Shown here piece by piece: positions 8,757 to 18,071 of a stretch of DNA of 64,000 bases. This DNA is from Nonomuraea gerenzanensis (GTDB lineage Bacteria > Actinomycetota > Actinomycetes > Streptosporangiales > Streptosporangiaceae). Positions within the stretch are counted from its first letter, which is position 1. Each line of letters starts with the position of its first letter. The notes under the pieces are model-generated. The model was not told the origin of the DNA. It ran no database searches and saw only the letters and a program-made list of their open reading frames with translations. The position numbers were made by a program, and so were the translations under genes. The stretch covers positions 2,728,001 to 2,792,000 of the forward strand of contig NZ_CP084058.1 of assembly GCF_020215645.1 (NCBI RefSeq), read 5' to 3'.

Positions 8757-9650
8757 TCAGGAGCTGGGGCAGGTGTGGCGGTACTCCTCGATCGACAGCC
8801 CGCTGGGCGGCGGGCACAGGAACCGCTCGTAGCGGGTGTCGTCGTCGACGAACCGCTTGAGCCAGGCCACCATCGACTTGGCCATCGTGGTGTTGGTGGT
8901 CTGCGGGAAGAAGTGGCTGGCGTTGTTCAGCTCCAGGTACGCCTTCTCCGACGAGGACGGGATGCTGTTGTAGAACGGCTCCGAGTGGGTGGTGACGGAG
9001 GCGACGGAGTCGCTCTCACCACCGATGATCATCGTCGGCACCCGGATGCCCGACCACGACTTCGTCAGGTTCCAGGGCGCGAGCGGCACGGCCGCCTGCA
9101 GCGACGGGCGGTCGTCGGCCGCCTCCAGGGTGCCGCCACCGCCCATCGAGTGGCCGGCGACCGCGAGCCGCGACGGGTCGATGCGGCTGCGTACCGTCGT
9201 CGAGCTGTCCTCGACCAGGTAGTCGAGCGCGGCCAGGAGCTGGCGGCCCCGGCTGGCGGGCTGGTCGTAGATGCTGTTGGTCTCGATGCCGATCACGACG
9301 AAGCCGTGCGAGGCGATCCGCGGGCCGAGCCACGACAGGCTGGACCACCTGGCCGTGTACCCGGGCGAGATGGCGATCGCGCCGAACGTGCCCTGGCTGG
9401 TGTCGGTCGGGTAATAGATGGTGCCGCCGCCGAAGCCGGTCACGCTCAGCGAGGAGACGCTGGTCTGCGCGGTGCTGAACGGGCCGCGGCTGGCTTCGAG
9501 GATGGCGTCCGTGGGGTCGGGGCCCCGGTCGTACGGGCCCTGCGCCTGGGCGGGGGAGGCGGCCATCAGGGCGCCGCCGACCAGTGAGACGGTGAGGGCG
9601 AGCTTGGTCAACGTTCGCGCGCCGAACCGGGGGGTGGATAGCTGCACGTC
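8757..9650 (-). CDS. Secreted cutinase / polyester (PET) hydrolase homologue
   Basis: An exported alpha/beta hydrolase closely resembling Thermobifida cutinases and LCC-type PET hydrolases. Residues are numbered in the 303-residue frame from ATG 9668. The signal peptide ends at AQA-QG near 43. The mature start is PYDRGPDPTDAILEAS. The catalytic serine is Ser174 in GHSMGGGG. Asp220 (GGESDSVA) and His252 (NASHFFP) complete the triad. Tyr104 and Met175 form the oxyanion hole, and Trp199 (PLAPWN) matches the substrate-clamping tryptophan. Cys285 and Cys300 match the C-terminal disulfide. His before Ser and Phe after the catalytic His place it with type I cutinase-like enzymes. It would hydrolyse cutin, suberin or synthetic polyesters outside the cell. 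GTG 9650 is preferred (AGGGAG nine bases upstream). Confidence 0.92.
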   Translation of the reverse strand, partial: DVQLSTPRFGARTLTKLALTVSLVGGALMAASPAQAQGPYDRGPDPTDAILEASRGPFSTAQTSVSSLSVTGFGGGTIYYPTDTSQGTFGAIAISPGYTARWSSLSWLGPRIASHGFVVIGIETNSIYDQPASRGRQLLAALDYLVEDSSTTVRSRIDPSRLAVAGHSMGGGGTLEAADDRPSLQAAVPLAPWNLTKSWSGIRVPTMIIGGESDSVASVTTHSEPFYNSIPSSSEKAYLELNNASHFFPQTTNTTMAKSMVAWLKRFVDDDTRYERFLCPPPSGLSIEEYRHTCPSS

Positions 9651-9719
9651 GTCATACTCCCTGCTCATCGAGGGTGACTGCTGTCTGTCGCCATTGTTCG
9701 GATGCGCAGTCAGCCGTGC

Positions 9720-9738
9720 ATCGGTGAAATCACCGGTC
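9720..9738. promoter_or_regulatory. Putative operator upstream of the cutinase gene, copy 1
   Basis: ATCGGTGAAATCACCGGTC contains CGGTGA-AA-TCACCG, a 6-bp-arm palindrome. Its exact reverse complement occurs at 12595-12613, upstream of the LuxR-type regulator. The site begins 52 bases before the cutinase ATG 9668. This suggests both genes are controlled by one factor, plausibly the LuxR protein itself. Confidence 0.65.
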
Positions 9739-9744
9739 CTGTGT

Positions 9745-12543
9745 TCAGGACATGAGCCTTACCAGTTCGACGCGGGAGCGGATGCCGAGCCGGCTGAAGA
9801 TGTTCCTGAGGTGGTGCTCGACGGTGCGGCGGCTGAGGAAGAGCTGCTCGGCCACCTCCTTGTTGGTGGCGCCCTCGGCGACCATGCGGGCGATCTGCAG
9901 CTGCTGCGCCGTGAGCTGGCCCGTCGTCACGTCCAGCACCGGGCGCACGGGGTCGCCGGAGGCCCGCAGCTCGGTCCTGGCCTGCTCGGTCCACAGGCGC
10001 GCGCCGTACCGCTCGAACGTCTCCAGCGCAGAGTGCAGGTGCGTCCTGGCCGCCCCCGGCCGCCGGTCGCGCCGCAGCGCGCTGCCGTAAAGCAGTCTGG
10101 TACGGGCCGCCTCGAACTCGTACACGCCCTGCCCGTGCAGGTCGAGCGCCTCCCTGAACAGCTCCTCCGCCTCGCCCGGTGGCGCCAGCAGCGCCCGGCA
10201 GCGGGACACCAGCGCCCGCAGGCCGGGGCTGCGCGTGCTGCCCACCCAGCGCTCCAGCACCCGCAGCGCCGACCCGGCCGCCTCGTGGTCGCCGGTACGC
10301 GCGCACGCCTCGATGAAGTGCGGCGTGGCCATGACCCTGATGACCACGTGGTTGCTGTTGCGCCGCTCGGCACGCAGCCGGTTGGCCGCGTCGGCGGGGC
10401 GGCCCGCGGCCAGGTCGAGGTAGGCCAGCGCCCAGTTGCCGATCGCGCCCGCCACGGCCAGGTCGTGCGCGTCGGCCAGGTCGATGGCGGCGTCGGCGCG
10501 CACCCGGCAGGTGTCCTGGTCGCCCTCGACGGCCGCCGTGATCGCCAGCCAGGCCAGGTGCTGGGCGGCCGTGTTGAGCTGGCCGGTCTCCTGTGCCAGG
10601 CGCAGGCCCTGGGCGGCGGTGGTGGCGACGGCGGCGTACCGGCCCATCCAGATCTCCGGGTAGATCATGTACTCCAGGAGCTGCGGCATGGCCGAGACCG
10701 CGCCGCGCACGCGGGCCGCCTCGATGGCGCGCGCCGACAGGCGGTGCGCGGTGGCGTCCTCGCCGAGCAGCATGCTGGCCACGCACGCCCACACCAGCAC
10801 GGCGGGATCGCGCACGGAGCCGGCCAGCTCGACCACCCGCCGCAGCGGCGCCGCCGCCTCTTGGTGGGAGCCGCTGAAGGTGGAGGCCATGCCGGCCAGG
10901 TACTCGAACATGAGCTGCGTCGGCACCGTCTCGTCGGGGCGGCGCAGCGCGGCGGCCTGGCGGGCGATCGCGATGAACGCGCGGTTGTCGCCCGCCCGGT
11001 AACTGGCGTCGGCGGCCCGGACCAGCGCGCGCACGCCCAGCATGCGGTGGCTCTCCAGCAGCCAGGTCGCCGCCGAGAGCAGCTCCTCGCGGGCGCTGCC
11101 CGTCTCGCCGCCGAGCAGCTCCAGGCTGCCGTGCAGGAGCTGGACGTGGGCGCGCAGCTCGTCGGGGGCCGCGAGGCTGCGCAGCCTGGCCAGCAGGGAG
11201 CGGGCGACCTGGGGGCGGCCCGCCACCCAGGCGTACCGGGCGGCGGCGGCCAGGCGCTCGGCCTTGGCGGGGTGGTGTGGGTCGGTGAGCTCGGCGGCGC
11301 GTTCCAGGGCCAGGTACGGCTCGGGGTGCGTGTGCGCGGGGTGGGCGTCGAGGGCGGCGGCGGCCAGGTCGTCGGCGAGGGCGGCGGGCGGGCCGTCGAG
11401 GGCGCAGGCCCGGTGCCAGGCGTGGCGCAGACGGTGCGAATCGCCCCTCGGCCCGCCGTCCCCGAGGAGGCCTGTCGGCCCGCCGTCCCCGAGGAGGCCC
11501 GCCTGCTCATCGTTCCCCAGCAGGCTCGCCAGGAGGCGGTGGCTGCTGCGGCGCCGCAGGAGGGACGCGCCGTAGTAGACCACGCCGCGCACGGCCGGGT
11601 CGCGGAAGTCGTAGCGGTCACCCACGGAGTGCAGGACGCCCGCCCGCTCGGCCGGCTCCAGCACCGTGAGCGCGCACGAGGGCCGGGCCGCCCGGATCAG
11701 CGTGGGCAGGTCGAGCCCGGGATCGGCGGCGATCAGCAGGAGCAGCCGCTGCGCCTCGGCGGGCAGCGCGGCCAGCAGGCTCGTGTGCTCGCGCCACAAC
11801 CGCCCGCCCTTCGGCAGCGTCACGGGCGGCGCGGCCAGGCCGGCGAGCTGGTCGGGGGTGAGCGAGGCGATCAGCTCGGCCAGCGCGAGCGGGTTGCCCC
11901 TGGCGATCTGGTCCAGCGCCGCCAGCAGGTCCTCGGCCACCTTCCCCGCCGCCAGATCGCCTGCCAGCTCCCGTACGGCGGCCGCGTCCAGCCCGCCCAG
12001 CACCCGCACGGGCACGCCCTCCGGCGACCGCGCGGCCTCCCTGGCGGTGAACAGCAGCGCCACCGCCTCCCCTGTCACCCGCCTGGCCGCGAACGACAGC
12101 ACCTCCCTGCTGTCGGTGTCCAGCAGGTCCACGTCGTCCACGCAGGCCAGCACCGGCTGCTCGGCGGCCACCGCCGACAGCAGGCCCAGCACGGCCGCGG
12201 GCAACGTCAGCCCGCCGGCCCCGGTGCCGGACTCCAGCGCCGACATCAGTGCGCGTGCCTGCGCGCCGGGCAGCGAGGCGGCGCCCGCGGCGACGGGCCG
12301 CAGCAGGCCGTGCAGCCCGGCGTACGGCAGCCGCGACTCCGACTCCACCCCCGAGACGCGCAGGACACGGAAGCCGGGGGCGGCGTGCGCGATGGCCAGG
12401 TCCAGCAGCGCCGTCTTGCCCATGCCGGGCGCGCCCACCAGGAGCAGCGCTCCGCCGGAGCCGGCGCGGGCGTGGTCGAGCAGCCGCAGCAGGGCGCGTT
12501 CTTCCTCGCCGCGCCCGCGTAAGAGAGGCTTGTCGGAGGACAC
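9745..12543 (-). CDS. Large ATP-binding LuxR (LAL-type) transcriptional regulator
   Basis: A 932-residue regulator. Residues 9-300 form an AAA/NB-ARC-like ATPase with Walker A GAPGMGKT at 37-44 and Walker B in VLACVDDVDLLD. The middle is helical, TPR-like. The last 60 residues form a LuxR/FixJ helix-turn-helix (LTAQQLQIARMVAEGATNKE, then LFLSRRTVEHHLRNIFSRLG). The family switches on secreted enzymes or secondary metabolism after binding a ligand and ATP. GTG 12543 is chosen because LLRGRGEEERAL starts the ATPase there; no Shine-Dalgarno is visible, so the mRNA may be leaderless. It sits upstream of, and in the same direction as, the cutinase gene. Confidence 0.9.
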   Translation of the reverse strand: MSSDKPLLRGRGEEERALLRLLDHARAGSGGALLLVGAPGMGKTALLDLAIAHAAPGFRVLRVSGVESESRLPYAGLHGLLRPVAAGAASLPGAQARALMSALESGTGAGGLTLPAAVLGLLSAVAAEQPVLACVDDVDLLDTDSREVLSFAARRVTGEAVALLFTAREAARSPEGVPVRVLGGLDAAAVRELAGDLAAGKVAEDLLAALDQIARGNPLALAELIASLTPDQLAGLAAPPVTLPKGGRLWREHTSLLAALPAEAQRLLLLIAADPGLDLPTLIRAARPSCALTVLEPAERAGVLHSVGDRYDFRDPAVRGVVYYGASLLRRRSSHRLLASLLGNDEQAGLLGDGGPTGLLGDGGPRGDSHRLRHAWHRACALDGPPAALADDLAAAALDAHPAHTHPEPYLALERAAELTDPHHPAKAERLAAAARYAWVAGRPQVARSLLARLRSLAAPDELRAHVQLLHGSLELLGGETGSAREELLSAATWLLESHRMLGVRALVRAADASYRAGDNRAFIAIARQAAALRRPDETVPTQLMFEYLAGMASTFSGSHQEAAAPLRRVVELAGSVRDPAVLVWACVASMLLGEDATAHRLSARAIEAARVRGAVSAMPQLLEYMIYPEIWMGRYAAVATTAAQGLRLAQETGQLNTAAQHLAWLAITAAVEGDQDTCRVRADAAIDLADAHDLAVAGAIGNWALAYLDLAAGRPADAANRLRAERRNSNHVVIRVMATPHFIEACARTGDHEAAGSALRVLERWVGSTRSPGLRALVSRCRALLAPPGEAEELFREALDLHGQGVYEFEAARTRLLYGSALRRDRRPGAARTHLHSALETFERYGARLWTEQARTELRASGDPVRPVLDVTTGQLTAQQLQIARMVAEGATNKEVAEQLFLSRRTVEHHLRNIFSRLGIRSRVELVRLMS

Positions 12544-12594
12544 GTCGCCAGTGTTACGCGCGGATGTCAGGACTGAAAGAGGACGTTCGTAAGA

Positions 12595-12613
12595 GACCGG
12601 TGATTTCACCGAT
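12595..12613. promoter_or_regulatory. Putative operator upstream of the LuxR gene, copy 2
   Basis: GACCGGTGATTTCACCGAT is the exact reverse complement of the site before the cutinase gene. It begins 52 bases before the LuxR GTG start, the same distance as copy 1 from its ATG. Autoregulation plus control of the downstream enzyme is the simplest reading. Confidence 0.65.
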
Positions 12614-12710: not shown

Positions 12711-13688
12711 TCAGGGCCTGACCCCGACGCGTCTCCTGGACAGCCGGTCGGAGACGGCCGGTACGAGCCCCTGCGGCATGAACAGCACCACCCCGATCAG
12801 CACGAGCGCGTACACCGCGTACGACAGCACGCTCGGCGCGTAGGTCGGCATGCCAGGCAACGCCGCCAGCAGGTCCAGCCCCTGCACGAGCAGCGTGATG
12901 GCGGTGGCTCCCACCACCGCGCCCCAGATCGTCCCGAGCCCGCCGACCACCGCCATCACGATGTACTGGATCGAGAGCAGCACGGGGAACGACGTCGGCG
13001 CGACGTATCCGGTGTAGAAGCAGTAGATCCCCCCGGCCAGCCCCGCGAACGTGGCCGACAGGGCGAAGACGACCAGCTTGTACCGGCCCACCGGGATGCC
13101 GGACGAGGCCGCCGCGATCTCGCTGGTCGCCAGGGCGCGCAGGGCGCGGCCCGGGCGGGAGGTGATCACGTTGTGCGTGACCAGCATGACCAGGGCCAGC
13201 CCCGCCCACGTCAGGTACGCGTACACCGACGCGCTCGTGGCCACGAACGAACCGGCGCCGAACTGCGGGATGCCCTGCAGCCCGATGTCCCCGCCGGTGA
13301 ACTCCAGCTGCCCCGCCAGGGACAGCAGGATGAGCTGCATGGCCAGGGTGGCGAAGGCCAGGTGGTGGCCGCGCAGCCGCAGCAGCGGGACGCCGATGAC
13401 GAGGGCGGACAGCGCGGCGGCCACGGGCGCGGCCACCAGGCCCACCAGCGGGGGAGCGCCGTTCAGCGCCAGCAGGGCCGCGGTGTAGGCGCCGATGGCG
13501 TAGAAGGCGCCCTGGCCCAGCGACACCTGCCCGGCGTACCCCATGAGCAGCGACACCCCGACCGTCACCATGGCGGCCAGGCCGAGCAGGATGTAGACGG
13601 CCAGCGCGCTGTCGTCGAGCACGGCCGGCAGGACGAGCGTCACGACGGCGACCAGCAGCCCGGCCGCGAGCCCCAGCCGCCTGCTCAT
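12711..13688 (-). CDS. livM: Branched-chain amino acid-type ABC permease (LivM)
   Basis: A 325-residue permease with about nine to ten hydrophobic segments and the LivM signature LLMGYAGQVSLGQGAFYAIGAY near the N-terminus, plus AVVGGLGTIWGAVVGA near the C-terminus. It forms the membrane channel with LivH. ATG 13688 follows AGGAGT and overlaps the livH stop by four bases (ATGA), showing translational coupling. It is the last of five genes in the operon. The soluble receptor and PaaX context suggest the cargo may be an aromatic or other carboxylic acid and not an amino acid. Confidence 0.92.
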   Translation of the reverse strand: MSRRLGLAAGLLVAVVTLVLPAVLDDSALAVYILLGLAAMVTVGVSLLMGYAGQVSLGQGAFYAIGAYTAALLALNGAPPLVGLVAAPVAAALSALVIGVPLLRLRGHHLAFATLAMQLILLSLAGQLEFTGGDIGLQGIPQFGAGSFVATSASVYAYLTWAGLALVMLVTHNVITSRPGRALRALATSEIAAASSGIPVGRYKLVVFALSATFAGLAGGIYCFYTGYVAPTSFPVLLSIQYIVMAVVGGLGTIWGAVVGATAITLLVQGLDLLAALPGMPTYAPSVLSYAVYALVLIGVVLFMPQGLVPAVSDRLSRRRVGVRP

Positions 13689-14545
13689 GTGGACTCCTGG
13701 GAGATGGCCGGGCGGCGGCCCGCCTGCACGATCATGACGACGAGCATGAGTCCCAGCGCGACCTCCAGCTGGTGCGAGCCGTAGCCGTAGCCGGCGGCCA
13801 TGGTCTCGGCCACGCCCAGCAGCAGCGCGCCGACGAGCGTGATCACGGGACGGGTGAGCGCGCCGAAGACGGCGGCGGCGAAGCCGTTGACGATGAGCGT
13901 GACGTCGGTGTCGAACGAGATCGGCCGCAGCGGCGTGACCAGCACCCCGGCGACGCCGCCGAGCAGCCCGCCCAGCGCGAACGCCAGCAGCCCCATCCGC
14001 CGGGTGTCGATGCCGACGACGCGGGCGGCGTACGGGTTGGAGGCGCACGCGGTCAGCGCCTTGCCCAGGTAGGTGCGCCCGAAGAAGAGTGCGAGCAGCA
14101 CGAACGTGCCCGCGGCCACGCCGATGACCAGCAGGTGCTGCGTCTGGATGCGCGCCCCCGCCAGCGTCACCGAGCCGGCCAGGCCGGGCGCCGAGCGCGG
14201 CTGGTCGCCCCAGAGCACGATCTCCACCGCGTACGCGAGCACGCCCACGCCCAGCGTGACGATCAGCGACGACAGCGGCGTGGTGCCCGGCTTGCCGATG
14301 GCGGCCAGCCCGGTCAGCAGGCCCGCCACCGCCGCCGCCAGGACGGCGGCCACCTCGCTGACCCCGTGCGGCAAGCCCAGCCCGAGCAGGGAGGACGTGC
14401 ACAGCCCCGCGACGACGGCGAAGGTGCCCTGCGCGAAGTTCACCACGCCGGTGACGCGGTGGATGACGACCAGGCCGCTGGCGATGAGCGCGATGGCGGA
14501 GCCGACCGCGAGCCCGTTGAGGAGGTAGGTGAGGAATGCGCTCAC
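13685..14545 (-). CDS. livH: Branched-chain amino acid-type ABC permease (LivH)
   Basis: A 286-residue permease with eight or so hydrophobic segments. The opening LLNGLAVGSAIALIASGLVV and the following VTGVVNFAQGTFAVVAG are hallmark LivH sequences. It pairs with LivM in the inner membrane. It ends within the start codon of livM and begins 25 bases after the livF stop. Length and motifs are normal. Confidence 0.92.
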   Translation of the reverse strand: MSAFLTYLLNGLAVGSAIALIASGLVVIHRVTGVVNFAQGTFAVVAGLCTSSLLGLGLPHGVSEVAAVLAAAVAGLLTGLAAIGKPGTTPLSSLIVTLGVGVLAYAVEIVLWGDQPRSAPGLAGSVTLAGARIQTQHLLVIGVAAGTFVLLALFFGRTYLGKALTACASNPYAARVVGIDTRRMGLLAFALGGLLGGVAGVLVTPLRPISFDTDVTLIVNGFAAAVFGALTRPVITLVGALLLGVAETMAAGYGYGSHQLEVALGLMLVVMIVQAGRRPAISQEST

Positions 14546-14570
14546 GCCCTGGCCGCCCCTTCGCCGCCGC

Positions 14571-15226
<656 letters not shown>

Positions 15227-15230
<4 letters not shown>

Positions 15231-15982
15231 GAGGCCTGTCCGAGATAGGCGGCCAGCACCAGCGGGTCGGCGCGCACCTCGGCCGGCGGGCCGTCGGCGA
15301 TGACCTGCCCCAGGTCGAGCACCACGACGCGGTCGGCCAGCCGGGTCACGAACGCCACGTCGTGCTCGATGAGCAGGATCGTCAGGCCGTCCGCCCGCAG
15401 CTCCTCCACCAGCCTCGCCAGCCGCTCGCGCTCCTCGCCGCGCAGCCCGGACGCGGGCTCGTCGAGCAGCAGCAGCCGGGGCCGCGCGCACAGGGCGCGG
15501 GCCAGTTGCAGCGCCCGCTGCTGGCCGATCGGCAGCCGGTCGGCCGGCCGGTCGGCCCACTCCGCGAGCCCCACGCGCTCCAGGGCGGTGGCGGCCTCGG
15601 CGGCGATCTCGCGCTCGTCGGCCCGGTGCCGGGGCAGCCGCAGCGCGGCCGAGCCGAACCCGGCCCGGGTGCGCCCGTGCGCCCCCACCATGACGTTCTC
15701 CTCGACCGTCATGCCGCGGAACACCCTGGCCGCCTGGAAGACGATCGACATGCCGAGCCGGGCCCTGCGGTGCGGCGCGAGCCGGTCCACCCGCTGACCG
15801 AGGAAGGAGATGCGGCCGTGGTCGGCCGTCAGGTGCCCGGTGATCAGGTTGAACAAGGTGGACTTGCCGGCGCCGTTCGGGCCGATCACGCCGCAGACCT
15901 CGCCGTCCGCGACGCTCAGCGAGACGTCGCGGACGGCGTAGACGCCCCCGAAGGAGCGGGAGACCCCGGTGACGGTCAGCAC
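15227..15982 (-). CDS. livG: ABC transporter ATP-binding protein (LivG)
   Basis: A 251-residue ATPase. Walker A is GPNGAGKST. The LivG feature MSIVFQAARVFRGMTVEENV follows. Walker B is LLLLDEPASGL and the switch histidine is in LLIEHDV. The usual signature motif LSxGQ appears as LPIGQQRAL, a mild departure. GTG 15982 lies five bases after the receptor gene stop, and the gene overlaps livF. It works with LivF, LivH and LivM in one importer. Confidence 0.92.
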
Positions 15983-15987
15983 GCGCC

Positions 15988-17178
15988 CTACCCCTGCGCG
16001 TTCACGGTCTTGGTGAGCTGCTCCTTGGCCCATTCGGTGGGAACGAACTGGCCGTTCTGCACCGTGTTCACCGAGATGTACTCGGGCGACAGGCCGGAGT
16101 GGTCGGTGGCGGAGTAGCGGAAGCGGCCGTTCGGGGTGATCAGGTCCATGGCCTCCAGCGCCTTCTGGACCTTGGCCTTGTCGGTGCTGTTCGCCTTCCT
16201 GATCGCCTCGAACAGCAGCAGCGAGGCGCTGTAGCCGTCCTGGGCGAACTGGGGCGGCGGGTAGCCGTGCTTCTGCTCGTACGGCGTCGCCATCTGGTCG
16301 ATGACCTGCTTCTGCTTGCCGTCGGGCAGGTGGTCGCCGACCACGCCGATCGCGCTCTGCACGGTCATGCCCTCGGCCTGCGCGCCCATCGGCTCCAGCC
16401 ACAGCTTGCTGGCCTGCGAGGCGGTCAGGAACAGCGGCGTCTTGAGCCCCGAGGCCACGTACTGCTTGGCCGCCGTCACGCCCGGCGCGCCCGAGCCCCA
16501 GAACACCAGCGCCTCGGCCTTGGAGTCGCGCACGTGCGTGAACATCGCGCTGAAGTCGGAGGTGGTGGTCTCGTACGGCTCGTCCACGGCGATCGTCACG
16601 CCGTACTTCGGAGCCAGCTCGACCATCGACTTGTGGCCGGAGACGGAGTACGCGCTCTTGGAGTCCCACGCCACGGCGATCGTCTTGATGCCCTCGGCCT
16701 GGATGTACTGCAGGTAGCGCTCGGCGTACATGCTGGACAGGGCGGGGGTGACGAAGATGTAGGACTTGATCGGCTCGACCTGCTCCTGCGCCGGTGCCAG
16801 CGACAGGTAGGGCATCATGTCGCGCTGCGCGAGCGGCTCGACCGCCAGCGCCGAGTTGGAGAACACCGGCCCGATGAGCGCGTCGATCTCGCCCTTGATC
16901 TGGTTGTAGGCCACGATGCCCTGGTCGGGAGCCGTCTTGTCGTCCCGCGTGATCAGCTCCACCTTGCGGCCCAGCAGGCCGCCCTGTGCGTTGACCTGCT
17001 CGACGGCCAGCTCGACGGCCTTCTTGTCCTCGCTGCCGAGCGGGGTGTAGTTGCCGGTGAGGGAGACGATGAGCCCCACCTTGATGGGATCCGCCTGGCC
17101 ACCGCTCGACCCGCCCCCGCCGCCGCAGGCCGTCGCGGCCAACAACAGGCAGACCAGGGACGGAAGAAACCTGCGCAT
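15988..17178 (-). CDS. ABC transporter substrate-binding lipoprotein (LivK/Peripla_BP_6)
   Basis: A 396-residue lipoprotein. The signal ends in the lipobox LAATAC, so Cys18 is the lipidated residue, followed by a Gly/Ser linker. The mature domain begins IKVGLIVSLTGNYTPLG, the Peripla_BP_6 pattern. The C-terminus carries GLSPEYISVNTVQNGQFVPT. ATG 17178 is chosen over the frame start at 17205 because AGGAGGT lies just before it. It is first in the livKGFHM operon and divergent from paaX. With that neighbour the ligand may be an aromatic acid, but this is inference. Confidence 0.9.
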   Translation of the reverse strand: MRRFLPSLVCLLLAATACGGGGGSSGGQADPIKVGLIVSLTGNYTPLGSEDKKAVELAVEQVNAQGGLLGRKVELITRDDKTAPDQGIVAYNQIKGEIDALIGPVFSNSALAVEPLAQRDMMPYLSLAPAQEQVEPIKSYIFVTPALSSMYAERYLQYIQAEGIKTIAVAWDSKSAYSVSGHKSMVELAPKYGVTIAVDEPYETTTSDFSAMFTHVRDSKAEALVFWGSGAPGVTAAKQYVASGLKTPLFLTASQASKLWLEPMGAQAEGMTVQSAIGVVGDHLPDGKQKQVIDQMATPYEQKHGYPPPQFAQDGYSASLLLFEAIRKANSTDKAKVQKALEAMDLITPNGRFRYSATDHSGLSPEYISVNTVQNGQFVPTEWAKEQLTKTVNAQG

Positions 17179-17204
17179 CAGGACCTCCTGGGCCGGTGGC
17201 CCCA

Positions 17205-17233
17205 AAAGTAGGCAGGTACATTACGGCTGTCAA
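17205..17233 (-). promoter_or_regulatory. Promoter of the liv operon
   Basis: On the minus strand a TTGACA -35 box (17228-17233) and a TACTTT -10 box (17205-17210) are separated by exactly 17 bases, a close match to the housekeeping consensus. The putative PaaX motif at 17240 lies just upstream. Confidence 0.7.
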
Positions 17234-17264: not shown

Positions 17265-18071
17265 ATGCGGCCTCAATCGGTGATTCTCACCTTCCTCGGG
17301 GACCACGTGTACGGGCGCGGATTCTGTGTTTCCTCGCGGAGTTTCATCGAGGCGTTCGGCAAGGTGGGGATCTCGGAGGAGGCCACCCGCTCCACGCTGA
17401 CCCGGATGGTGCGCCGCGGGCTGCTGCGCCGGCAGCGCTGCGGCCGGCGCATGTTCTTCGGCCTCACCCCGACCAGCGCCGAGGTGCTCAAGGACGGCGA
17501 GCGGCGGCTGTGGCACAGCGGCGTGGTCAACGACGCCGACGAGGACAGGTGGACGCTGATCGGCTTCTCGCTGCCCGAGTCGTGGCAGCGGCAGCGGCAC
17601 GAGCTGCGCTCGCGGCTGGTCTGGGCCGGGTTCGGGCCGTTGCAGAACGGGTTGTGGATCGCTCCAGGCGAGGTGGACGCCACCGGCGTGGTCGAGGACC
17701 TGGGCGCCAACGTCCGCGTCTTCGCCGCCGAGCCGCGCCGGCCCACCGACATGCAGACCCTGGTGGGGGAGGCGTACGACCTGGCCGGGCTGGGCGAGCA
17801 GTACCGGGCGTTCCTGCGCCGCTGGGACCGGGCGGACCCGGCGCCGGAGGCGCCCGACGACCTGGGCCGGTCGCTGATGCTGCTCACCGGCTGGCTGCAG
17901 ATCATCAGGGCCGACCCGCGGCTGCCGCTGCGCTACCTGCCGGACGACTGGCCCGCCGAGAAGGCACAGCGGGTCTGCCACGCGCTGCACGAGCGGTTCA
18001 GGCCGCAGGCGGAGCGGATCGTGGCGGAGCTGCTCGACACGGTTCCCGATGAAAGTTCGGCAGAACCGTGA
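17265..18071 (+). CDS. PaaX family transcriptional repressor
   Basis: A 268-residue regulator. The N-terminal winged helix (VILTFLGDHVYGRGFCVSSR, then STLTRMVRRGLLRR) and the central Cas2-like/effector domain (RWTLIGFSLPES, RSRLVWAGFGPLQNGLWIAP) are the PaaX arrangement. PaaX-type repressors sense an aryl-CoA or acyl-CoA thioester and control genes for making and using it. That fits the acyl-CoA ligase downstream and the importer upstream. ATG 17265 with GGAGA upstream is preferred to the longer frame. It is the strongest hint to the pathway logic of this island. Confidence 0.88.
   Translation: MRPQSVILTFLGDHVYGRGFCVSSRSFIEAFGKVGISEEATRSTLTRMVRRGLLRRQRCGRRMFFGLTPTSAEVLKDGERRLWHSGVVNDADEDRWTLIGFSLPESWQRQRHELRSRLVWAGFGPLQNGLWIAPGEVDATGVVEDLGANVRVFAAEPRRPTDMQTLVGEAYDLAGLGEQYRAFLRRWDRADPAPEAPDDLGRSLMLLTGWLQIIRADPRLPLRYLPDDWPAEKAQRVCHALHERFRPQAERIVAELLDTVPDESSAEP

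Follow-up and report, generated by a model that had tools for sequence, protein, structure and literature searches.

A conserved palindromic box before a PET-hydrolase-like esterase gene and its neighbouring LipR-type regulator gene in Nonomuraea gerenzanensis

The closest described counterpart of the regulation considered here is that of the lipAR operon of Streptomyces exfoliatus and S. coelicolor (Servin-Gonzalez 1997 and Valdez 1999, both as cited in PMC12134079). According to a 2025 review (PMC12134079), LipR directly activates lipAR and binds conserved sequences 5' of the -35 region, and a dependence on bldA in S. exfoliatus is stated in the title of the 1997 LipR paper as that review gives it. 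S. coelicolor LipA has since been handled as a homologue of poly(ethylene terephthalate) (PET) hydrolases (PETases) and BHETases in a 2024 study (PMC11169514), in the main text of which the terms 'lipR' and 'LuxR' are absent. We analysed a stretch of 64,000 nucleotides from Nonomuraea gerenzanensis (assembly GCF_020215645.1, contig NZ_CP084058.1, positions 2,728,001 to 2,792,000 of the forward strand; hereafter the window), in which a gene for a secreted cutinase or PET-hydrolase-like esterase (8757..9668, minus strand, 303 aa) adjoins luxR, the gene for a large ATP-binding LuxR-family (LAL) regulator (9745..12543, minus strand, 932 aa). Each gene is preceded by a copy of one palindromic box. 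In our judgement it is likely that this box is the operator of a LipR-type LAL, through which the regulator would activate the cutinase gene in the manner of a class II activator and its own gene in the manner of a class I activator.

The 19-bp inverted repeat before the two genes, first reported in the initial annotation of this DNA, was confirmed when the window sequence was read: ATCGGTGAAATCACCGGTC lies at 9720-9738 and its exact reverse complement at 12595-12613, and each of the two 19-mer strings occurs once on the plus strand of the window. The core, CGGTGA-NN-TCACCG, consists of two perfect 6-bp arms. Box 1, the putative cutinase operator (9720..9738, minus strand), reads GACCGGTGATTTCACCGAT(GC) towards its gene and has a predicted centre at about -43; box 2, the putative luxR operator (12595..12613, minus strand), reads ATCGGTGAAATCACCGGTC towards luxR and is centred 61.5 bp 5' of the start codon. 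The boxes are rare in the 12.07-Mb genome. The 14-bp core CGGTGANNTCACCG has eight exact places, the two boxes included, and every one of the other six lies inside a called open reading frame (ORF), the ORF at L001 being doubtful with its low third-position GC. With up to two mismatches the 18-mer ACCGGTGATTTCACCGAT has the two boxes as its sole places, so that the 19-mer is not a common genomic repeat, and a 20-mer with up to three mismatches has five places, of which the three besides the boxes overlap called ORFs.

The initial annotation also judged an identical repeat at matched positions very unlikely to arise by chance. In part this stands, on the intergenic position and conservation of the box, and it is on these that the case for the box rests. 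The exactness of the repeat is weak evidence, because, among 19-mers, the window has five exact inverted pairs and direct repeats of 156 kinds. Both 19-mers do begin 52 bp 5' of the start codons used (9668 and 12543), but this matched offset was rejected as a functional spacing because among orthologues the luxR-side offset changes, whereas what persists is the helical phase and the spacing from box to minus-10.

The two gene products place the locus beside LipR. The cutinase matches the PETase family of Pfam (PF12740) at E=1.9e-123, its score of 411.5 bits against a curated cut-off of 28 assigning it to the PETase/cutinase family, and among PDB sequences it comes closest to a triacylglycerol lipase (7ykq) and to PET hydrolases; 1jfr LIPASE scores 372 bits. 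The luxR product has an AAA_16 ATPase domain at residues 8-157 and a GerE helix-turn-helix (HTH) at residues 876-930 of its 932 aa, which is the LipR-type LAL architecture (an N-terminal AAA/P-loop ATPase and a C-terminal GerE, or LuxR, HTH in a protein of about 900 aa). The likeness to LipR and lipAR thus comprises a LuxR-family regulator whose gene is contiguous with that of a secreted PF12740 lipase/PETase, and a related box upstream, a conserved site which at the level of sequence is common to the window and to Streptomyces PETase/lipase promoters. The difference lies in layout. In lipAR, as far as the review describes it, lipR is downstream of lipA in one operon; this arrangement was not found in the window, and we do not class the locus as a lipAR operon because luxR precedes the cutinase gene and has promoter-like elements and a box of its own.

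Analysis of Streptomyces loci helps to define this relationship. PETase genes are present in 100 of the 246 genomes of the genus to which genome G452 belongs, which we take to be Streptomyces; among 30 such loci, 21 have a LAL match downstream within the 1.5 kb available and 29 have an upstream box-like sequence with no more than four mismatches. A Streptomyces query gave 499 relatives, and the 80 best of these, the majority from Streptomyces, made up a second set of named loci. Here the best upstream 18-mer had at most four mismatches in 63 of the 80 loci and at most five in 71; the corresponding numbers for 400 dinucleotide shuffles were 0 and 5. A LAL match is found in 64 of the named loci, in 56 of them downstream on the same strand. 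None of the eight named loci without a box (seven or more mismatches) has a LAL match, compared with 64 of the other 72 that do, an association with an exact p of about 4e-7, calculated by hand and uncorrected for phylogeny. In S. exfoliatus NRRL B-2924 (L322) the PETase product best matches 1jfr LIPASE (E 1e-155), a LAL frame lies downstream of its gene, and the box AGACCGGTGGTTCTGCCGATGC, with four mismatches, lies upstream. In a quick tree of 137 thinned LAL rows with the HTH omitted, the window and Streptomyces LALs are on one side of a branch (SH-aLRT 99) and 12 other LALs, picked for absence of the box, on the other, although two loci of the latter class (L079, L080) carry a box-like sequence with two mismatches after the gene. 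By this tree the window LAL is of the lineage of the Streptomyces lipA-linked LALs, apart from the other LALs of its own genus. The initial annotation held that such regulation is not a described type for PET-hydrolase homologues; this does not hold, as Streptomyces lipA-lipR-like pairs share the enzyme family, the regulator type and a related box, and LipR is already treated in the review (PMC12134079).

Conservation within the genus was assessed in 54 genomes, with gene calls in the loci of relatives made by a simple script using third-position GC. At 25 loci (L019-L043) there is a LAL with an identity of at least about 52%, and a PETase gene adjoins it in all 25. The PETase-side box has no more than two mismatches in 20 of the 25 orthologues, and the luxR-side box no more than three in 18 of the 24 that could be assessed (at L042 a contig end interrupts the locus, and for G044 and G004 the luxR side was assessed on second contigs, L163 and L165). 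The conservation upstream of orthologous cutinase/luxR pairs that the initial annotation looked to is therefore present. PETase genes of a second clade (L192-L195, four of the six places listed) have neither a LAL match in the locus nor a box at the gene. In L036, L038, L042, L043 and L174 the PETase box is shifted (GATTCACCCGATGC or GATTCACGCGATGC), one centre base being lost and one gained after it.

Searching the genus with the 18-mers at up to two mismatches yielded 66 strand matches, spread over 33 of the 54 genomes; the reversed control yielded 2. Nineteen regions round sites away from the luxR locus were compared by tblastn, and gene calls were inspected for 11 of them. An exact box (G023, L081:7506) and a box with two mismatches (G011, L083:5213; the same letters occur in G010, G012 and G052) lie upstream of genes for secreted Abhydrolase_10 (PF20091) esterases. 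Besides these, clear links were limited to the sites after other LAL genes, and no link was seen at the remaining inspected sites. The latter LAL genes, at L079 (site 7587) and L080, are more distant ones, and the genes following the box-like sequences appear by eye to be FAD monooxygenase-like and transporter-like.

Class I and class II activation are known for LuxR-type and CRP-type activators, and the promoters studied here can be compared with both geometries. At PETase genes the spacing is fixed. The minus-10-like hexamer of the cutinase gene, AACAAT (9693..9698, minus strand), starts 22 bp after the 18-mer box. A similar element at a spacing within 1 bp is present in the consensus of 14 non-redundant genus promoters and 91 non-redundant named/Streptomyces PETase promoters (drawn from the 101 of 110 loci with no more than five mismatches), beginning 22-23 bp after the 18-mer and reading AACAAT in the genus and gAcagT in the named/Streptomyces consensus. 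From this distance the box centre at PETase genes would fall near -43, over the -35 position, which corresponds to class II geometry.

At luxR the box lies further from the start and its distance varies. The window has a minus-10 element, TAACACT (12550..12556, minus strand), a minus-35-like CTTTCA (12574..12579, minus strand) with a 17-bp spacer between the two, and box 2 upstream of both. The arrangement CTTTCA-17 bp-TAACACT is conserved, with a CCcTTTcag consensus at the minus-35 distance across 33 non-redundant luxR promoters. TAACACT was recognised near the start codon in 56 of 115 locus records, 33 of them non-redundant; the script did not detect it in the other 59, which include some duplicates and at least five script misses (L107, L113, L127, L129, L226). 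The GTG start (12541..12543, minus strand) follows the first T of the minus-10 element by 13 nt, and in relatives the distance from that T to the start codon is usually 8-14 nt. A leaderless luxR mRNA is therefore probable, in further support of the start codon at 12543. The distance from box centre to minus-10 takes 16 values between 36 and 133 bp in 56 records (23 non-redundant), and these are phased at 10.5 bp, with R=0.77 on the 23 non-redundant records and R=0.73 on distinct distance values (Rayleigh p 2e-5; 0 of 20000 random sets). In a conservative test with nine distance clusters, grouped by us, and a 7-bp minimum gap, p was 0.003 with the period fixed and 0.02 with it free; with a 9-bp minimum gap p was 0.019. 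A spacing which is fixed at PETase genes and varies by helical turns at luxR suggests class I autoactivation of the latter.

From these features we infer the following scheme. The LAL encoded between the two copies would bind both boxes. At the cutinase promoter it would act as a class II activator from a site some 43 bp before the predicted start, in the -35 place. At the luxR promoter, bound about 61 bp upstream and facing the same side of the helix, it would serve as a class I activator and so close a positive feedback loop. The likeness to class I and class II activators thus consists in predicted box centres at about -43 (cutinase) and about -61 (luxR) and in steps of about 10.5 bp among relatives, a geometry read from sequence with predicted transcription starts. 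The signal might be an imported breakdown product, since Pfam shows ATPase and HTH domains alone in the regulator. The label 'polymer-sensing' given in the initial annotation is unsupported, as a soluble LAL could at most sense such an imported product. Its proposal that the LAL activates both itself and the polyesterase fares better: the operator-like box is common to the two genes, and self-activation is made likelier because the luxR-side box keeps its helical phase.

The direction of the feedback could also be the opposite. If the LAL activated the cutinase gene through box 1 and repressed its own promoter through box 2, helical phasing would still be expected for some polymerase-contacting or looping repressors. 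The luxR promoter has its own -35-like CTTTCA and a -10 element, so that an activator is perhaps not needed, and the gene is kept in the 6 of 24 genus orthologues in which the box is absent or degraded. However, box 2 is placed upstream of the -10 element (36-133 bp from the box centre) and, in the window, upstream of the -35-like element too, which is the usual place of an activator, and since one good box was noticed per luxR promoter no partner for a loop was seen. We regard self-repression as improbable, though it is the most serious competitor of class I self-activation.

Analysis of more distant relatives widened our view of the box. In the family, a LAL match at E<=1e-130 is present in 54 of 150 genomes, and many of these LAL genes keep a box 5' of luxR even with no adjoining PETase gene. 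Of 90 luxR locus records from outside the genus, in which many genes are counted twice, 53 have a box within three mismatches. In the class, ACYGGTGATTTCRCCGATGC with one mismatch was found at 36 places in 29 of 394 genomes, and the reversed control pattern at none. Among the 30 places inspected, 14 lie before PETase genes, 6 before genes for small secreted lipases (L262-L265, L270, L272) and 4 between luxR and a divergent livG, and 6 are without evident link. By Pfam the L263 protein and the similar L132 protein are Lipase_2 members, and the other five small lipases are 41-96% identical to the L263 protein. Four boxed PETase genes (in G452, G089, G092 and G085) are on another contig from the LAL gene or more than 600 kb away from it; all four genomes have a LAL match at E<=1e-120, a level reached in just 31 of the 394. 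The description of the switch as self-contained accordingly holds for the genome of the window, as far as the scans reach, and fails elsewhere, where the box precedes other esterase and lipase genes and in some loci faces a Liv-type operon.

This wider distribution bears on whether the LAL is the protein that recognises the box, or a mere neighbour of sites read by some more general regulator. Boxed PETase or Lipase_2 genes whose loci show no LAL match (for example L266, L270, L281, L282 and L284) and the boxes before Abhydrolase_10 genes could be explained by such a regulator, and binding by the LAL is itself our reading of the sequences. Covariation between regulator and box, which might have tied the two together, is not significant: co-evolution of the recognition helix (HHLRN or YHLRN) with the box end was rejected as evidence when it failed a phylogenetic test, the raw table, from which rows exceeding six mismatches had been dropped, having GAT in 71 of 72 H rows and 14 of 25 Y rows. 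On the other side, LAL genes carry boxes in the absence of an adjoining PETase gene, the named PETase loci that lack a box also lack a LAL match, the unlinked boxed PETase genes sit in LAL-bearing genomes, and LipR provides a precedent. There is, in our view, only a slight chance that the general regulator is the correct explanation.

A similarly small chance is given to the idea that the luxR-side box once served a divergent Liv-type operon and in this genus is a relic, or has been re-used for luxR. Where divergent livG/livF genes were detected, 5 of 6 non-redundant luxR loci have a minus-10-like element on the liv side at PETase-type spacing, compared with 8 of 37 non-redundant loci in which they were not detected, some of these being cut short; two registers were allowed in this test. 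In the genus of the window the picture is otherwise, as 14 loci tested gave one weak divergent hit (L037, 29% identity, no -10-like element), and the box is still present in 18 of 24 orthologues with its helical phase to luxR kept. In the window itself, no match to CGGTGANNTCACCG with up to two mismatches was found between 12598 and 22243, and so none in front of the Liv operon. As for a chance or DNA-level repeat of no regulatory role, the five exact inverted 19-mer pairs of the window might invite it, but the box stays conserved between genera and between families while its flanks vary, which contradicts such an origin, and this explanation can practically be dismissed.

Several observations nevertheless weigh against a LAL operator with class II and class I action, or narrow its reach. 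In the genus, the PETase-side box has 3-5 mismatches in 5 of 25 orthologues (L035, L036, L038, L042, L043), and the best box on the G011 PETase contig, which starts inside a LAL C-terminus, has five. On the luxR side, 6 of 24 orthologues (L023, L025, L030, L036, L038, L041) have a degraded box or none, and the best box of a contig-end LAL fragment from G053 (L044, an uncounted 26th LAL) has six mismatches, so that autoregulation would not be a universal feature. Among luxR records from outside the genus, 37 of the 90 lack a box within three mismatches, and in some relatives the luxR-side conservation may in part serve the divergent liv operon. Eight boxed named loci have no LAL match, four of them on short contig ends, and as the named loci are mostly from Streptomyces they are not independent. 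The phasing test omits 15 boxed records with no recognised minus-10 and admits three variant minus-10s (TAACTT). Finally, the regulator tree built without the HTH has just three helix-type changes, and independent pairs on it are not significant.

Other features of the locus may add to the regulation proposed. The luxR gene has a single TTA codon, at codon 8, and so shows the mark of bldA-dependent genes; TTA was found in 6 of the 40 called genes of the window. It occupies the same place in five other genus orthologues (L020, L021, L026, L028, L029) and is absent or elsewhere in others. This accords with the bldA dependence stated in the 1997 LipR title, although the LAL of L322 itself shows no TTA, and, if that title for S. 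exfoliatus is taken as a guide, the codon may add developmental gating. In the interior of luxR, at 11454-11500, there is a short repeated stretch (CGTCCCCGAGGAGGCC). Upstream of luxR and on the same strand are genes for an ATP-binding cassette (ABC) importer of the Liv type, the branched-chain amino-acid family (12711..17205, minus strand, the stretch of the operon being 12711-17233; Pfam Peripla_BP_6 and ABC_tran), and livM lies 5' of luxR in 13 other genomes of the genus. Other genera, too, have LAL genes with neighbouring LivG/LivF matches. It is possible that this adjacent importer is the uptake partner of the system. A PaaX-family gene, divergent from the Liv operon, begins at 17265, and its first codons include a box-like sequence with one inserted base, ATCGGTGATTCTCACC, at 17275-17290.

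PAS-LuxR regulators such as PimM are a further group of actinomycete regulators with a LuxR-type HTH, recognising a palindrome with an A/T-rich centre before antibiotic genes. The window LAL resembles them in its HTH and in a putative palindromic site with an A/T-rich centre, and differs in having no Pfam PAS domain, in the arms of the site and in an esterase in place of antibiotic targets. A literature search for CCGGTGATT with Streptomyces returned plant or insect papers alone, judged by title. Apart from the lipase review, we found no account of the box or of a LuxR regulator of PET hydrolases in a search that left subscription literature largely uncovered, and the 1997 LipR paper may print a related consensus. 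The regulation at this locus looks like the LipR type, which is already described in kind for Streptomyces lipases; the layout is new, and self-activation is probable. As far as the literature was searched, what is new is the class-wide occurrence of the box, a gene order reversed relative to lipAR in which the regulator gene has a second box, autoregulatory promoters with helical phasing, and a connection with further esterases and Liv transporters.

Taken more broadly, a LipR-type box regulon could extend across actinobacterial families, in which LALs would activate genes for PET-hydrolase-like esterases, Lipase_2 and Abhydrolase_10 enzymes and, in some lineages, a Liv-type importer, and would amplify their own expression through a box moved by whole helical turns. 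The lineage of the window would then have a two-target switch, comprising the regulator and one polyesterase, with a TTA codon gating the regulator gene. We advance this tentatively, as a reading with somewhat less than an even chance of being right. PET-hydrolase homologues are intensively studied as enzymes, and little was found in the literature searched on how their genes are activated. A box that can be read from sequence would indicate which hydrolase genes share one switch, and points to the LAL protein as the sensor. The phased autoregulatory promoters form a natural series for the study of class I activation distance. The box also suggests an importer, the substrate of which may be the natural inducer, and through the inducer the question of what the natural substrate of these polyesterases is becomes a testable one.

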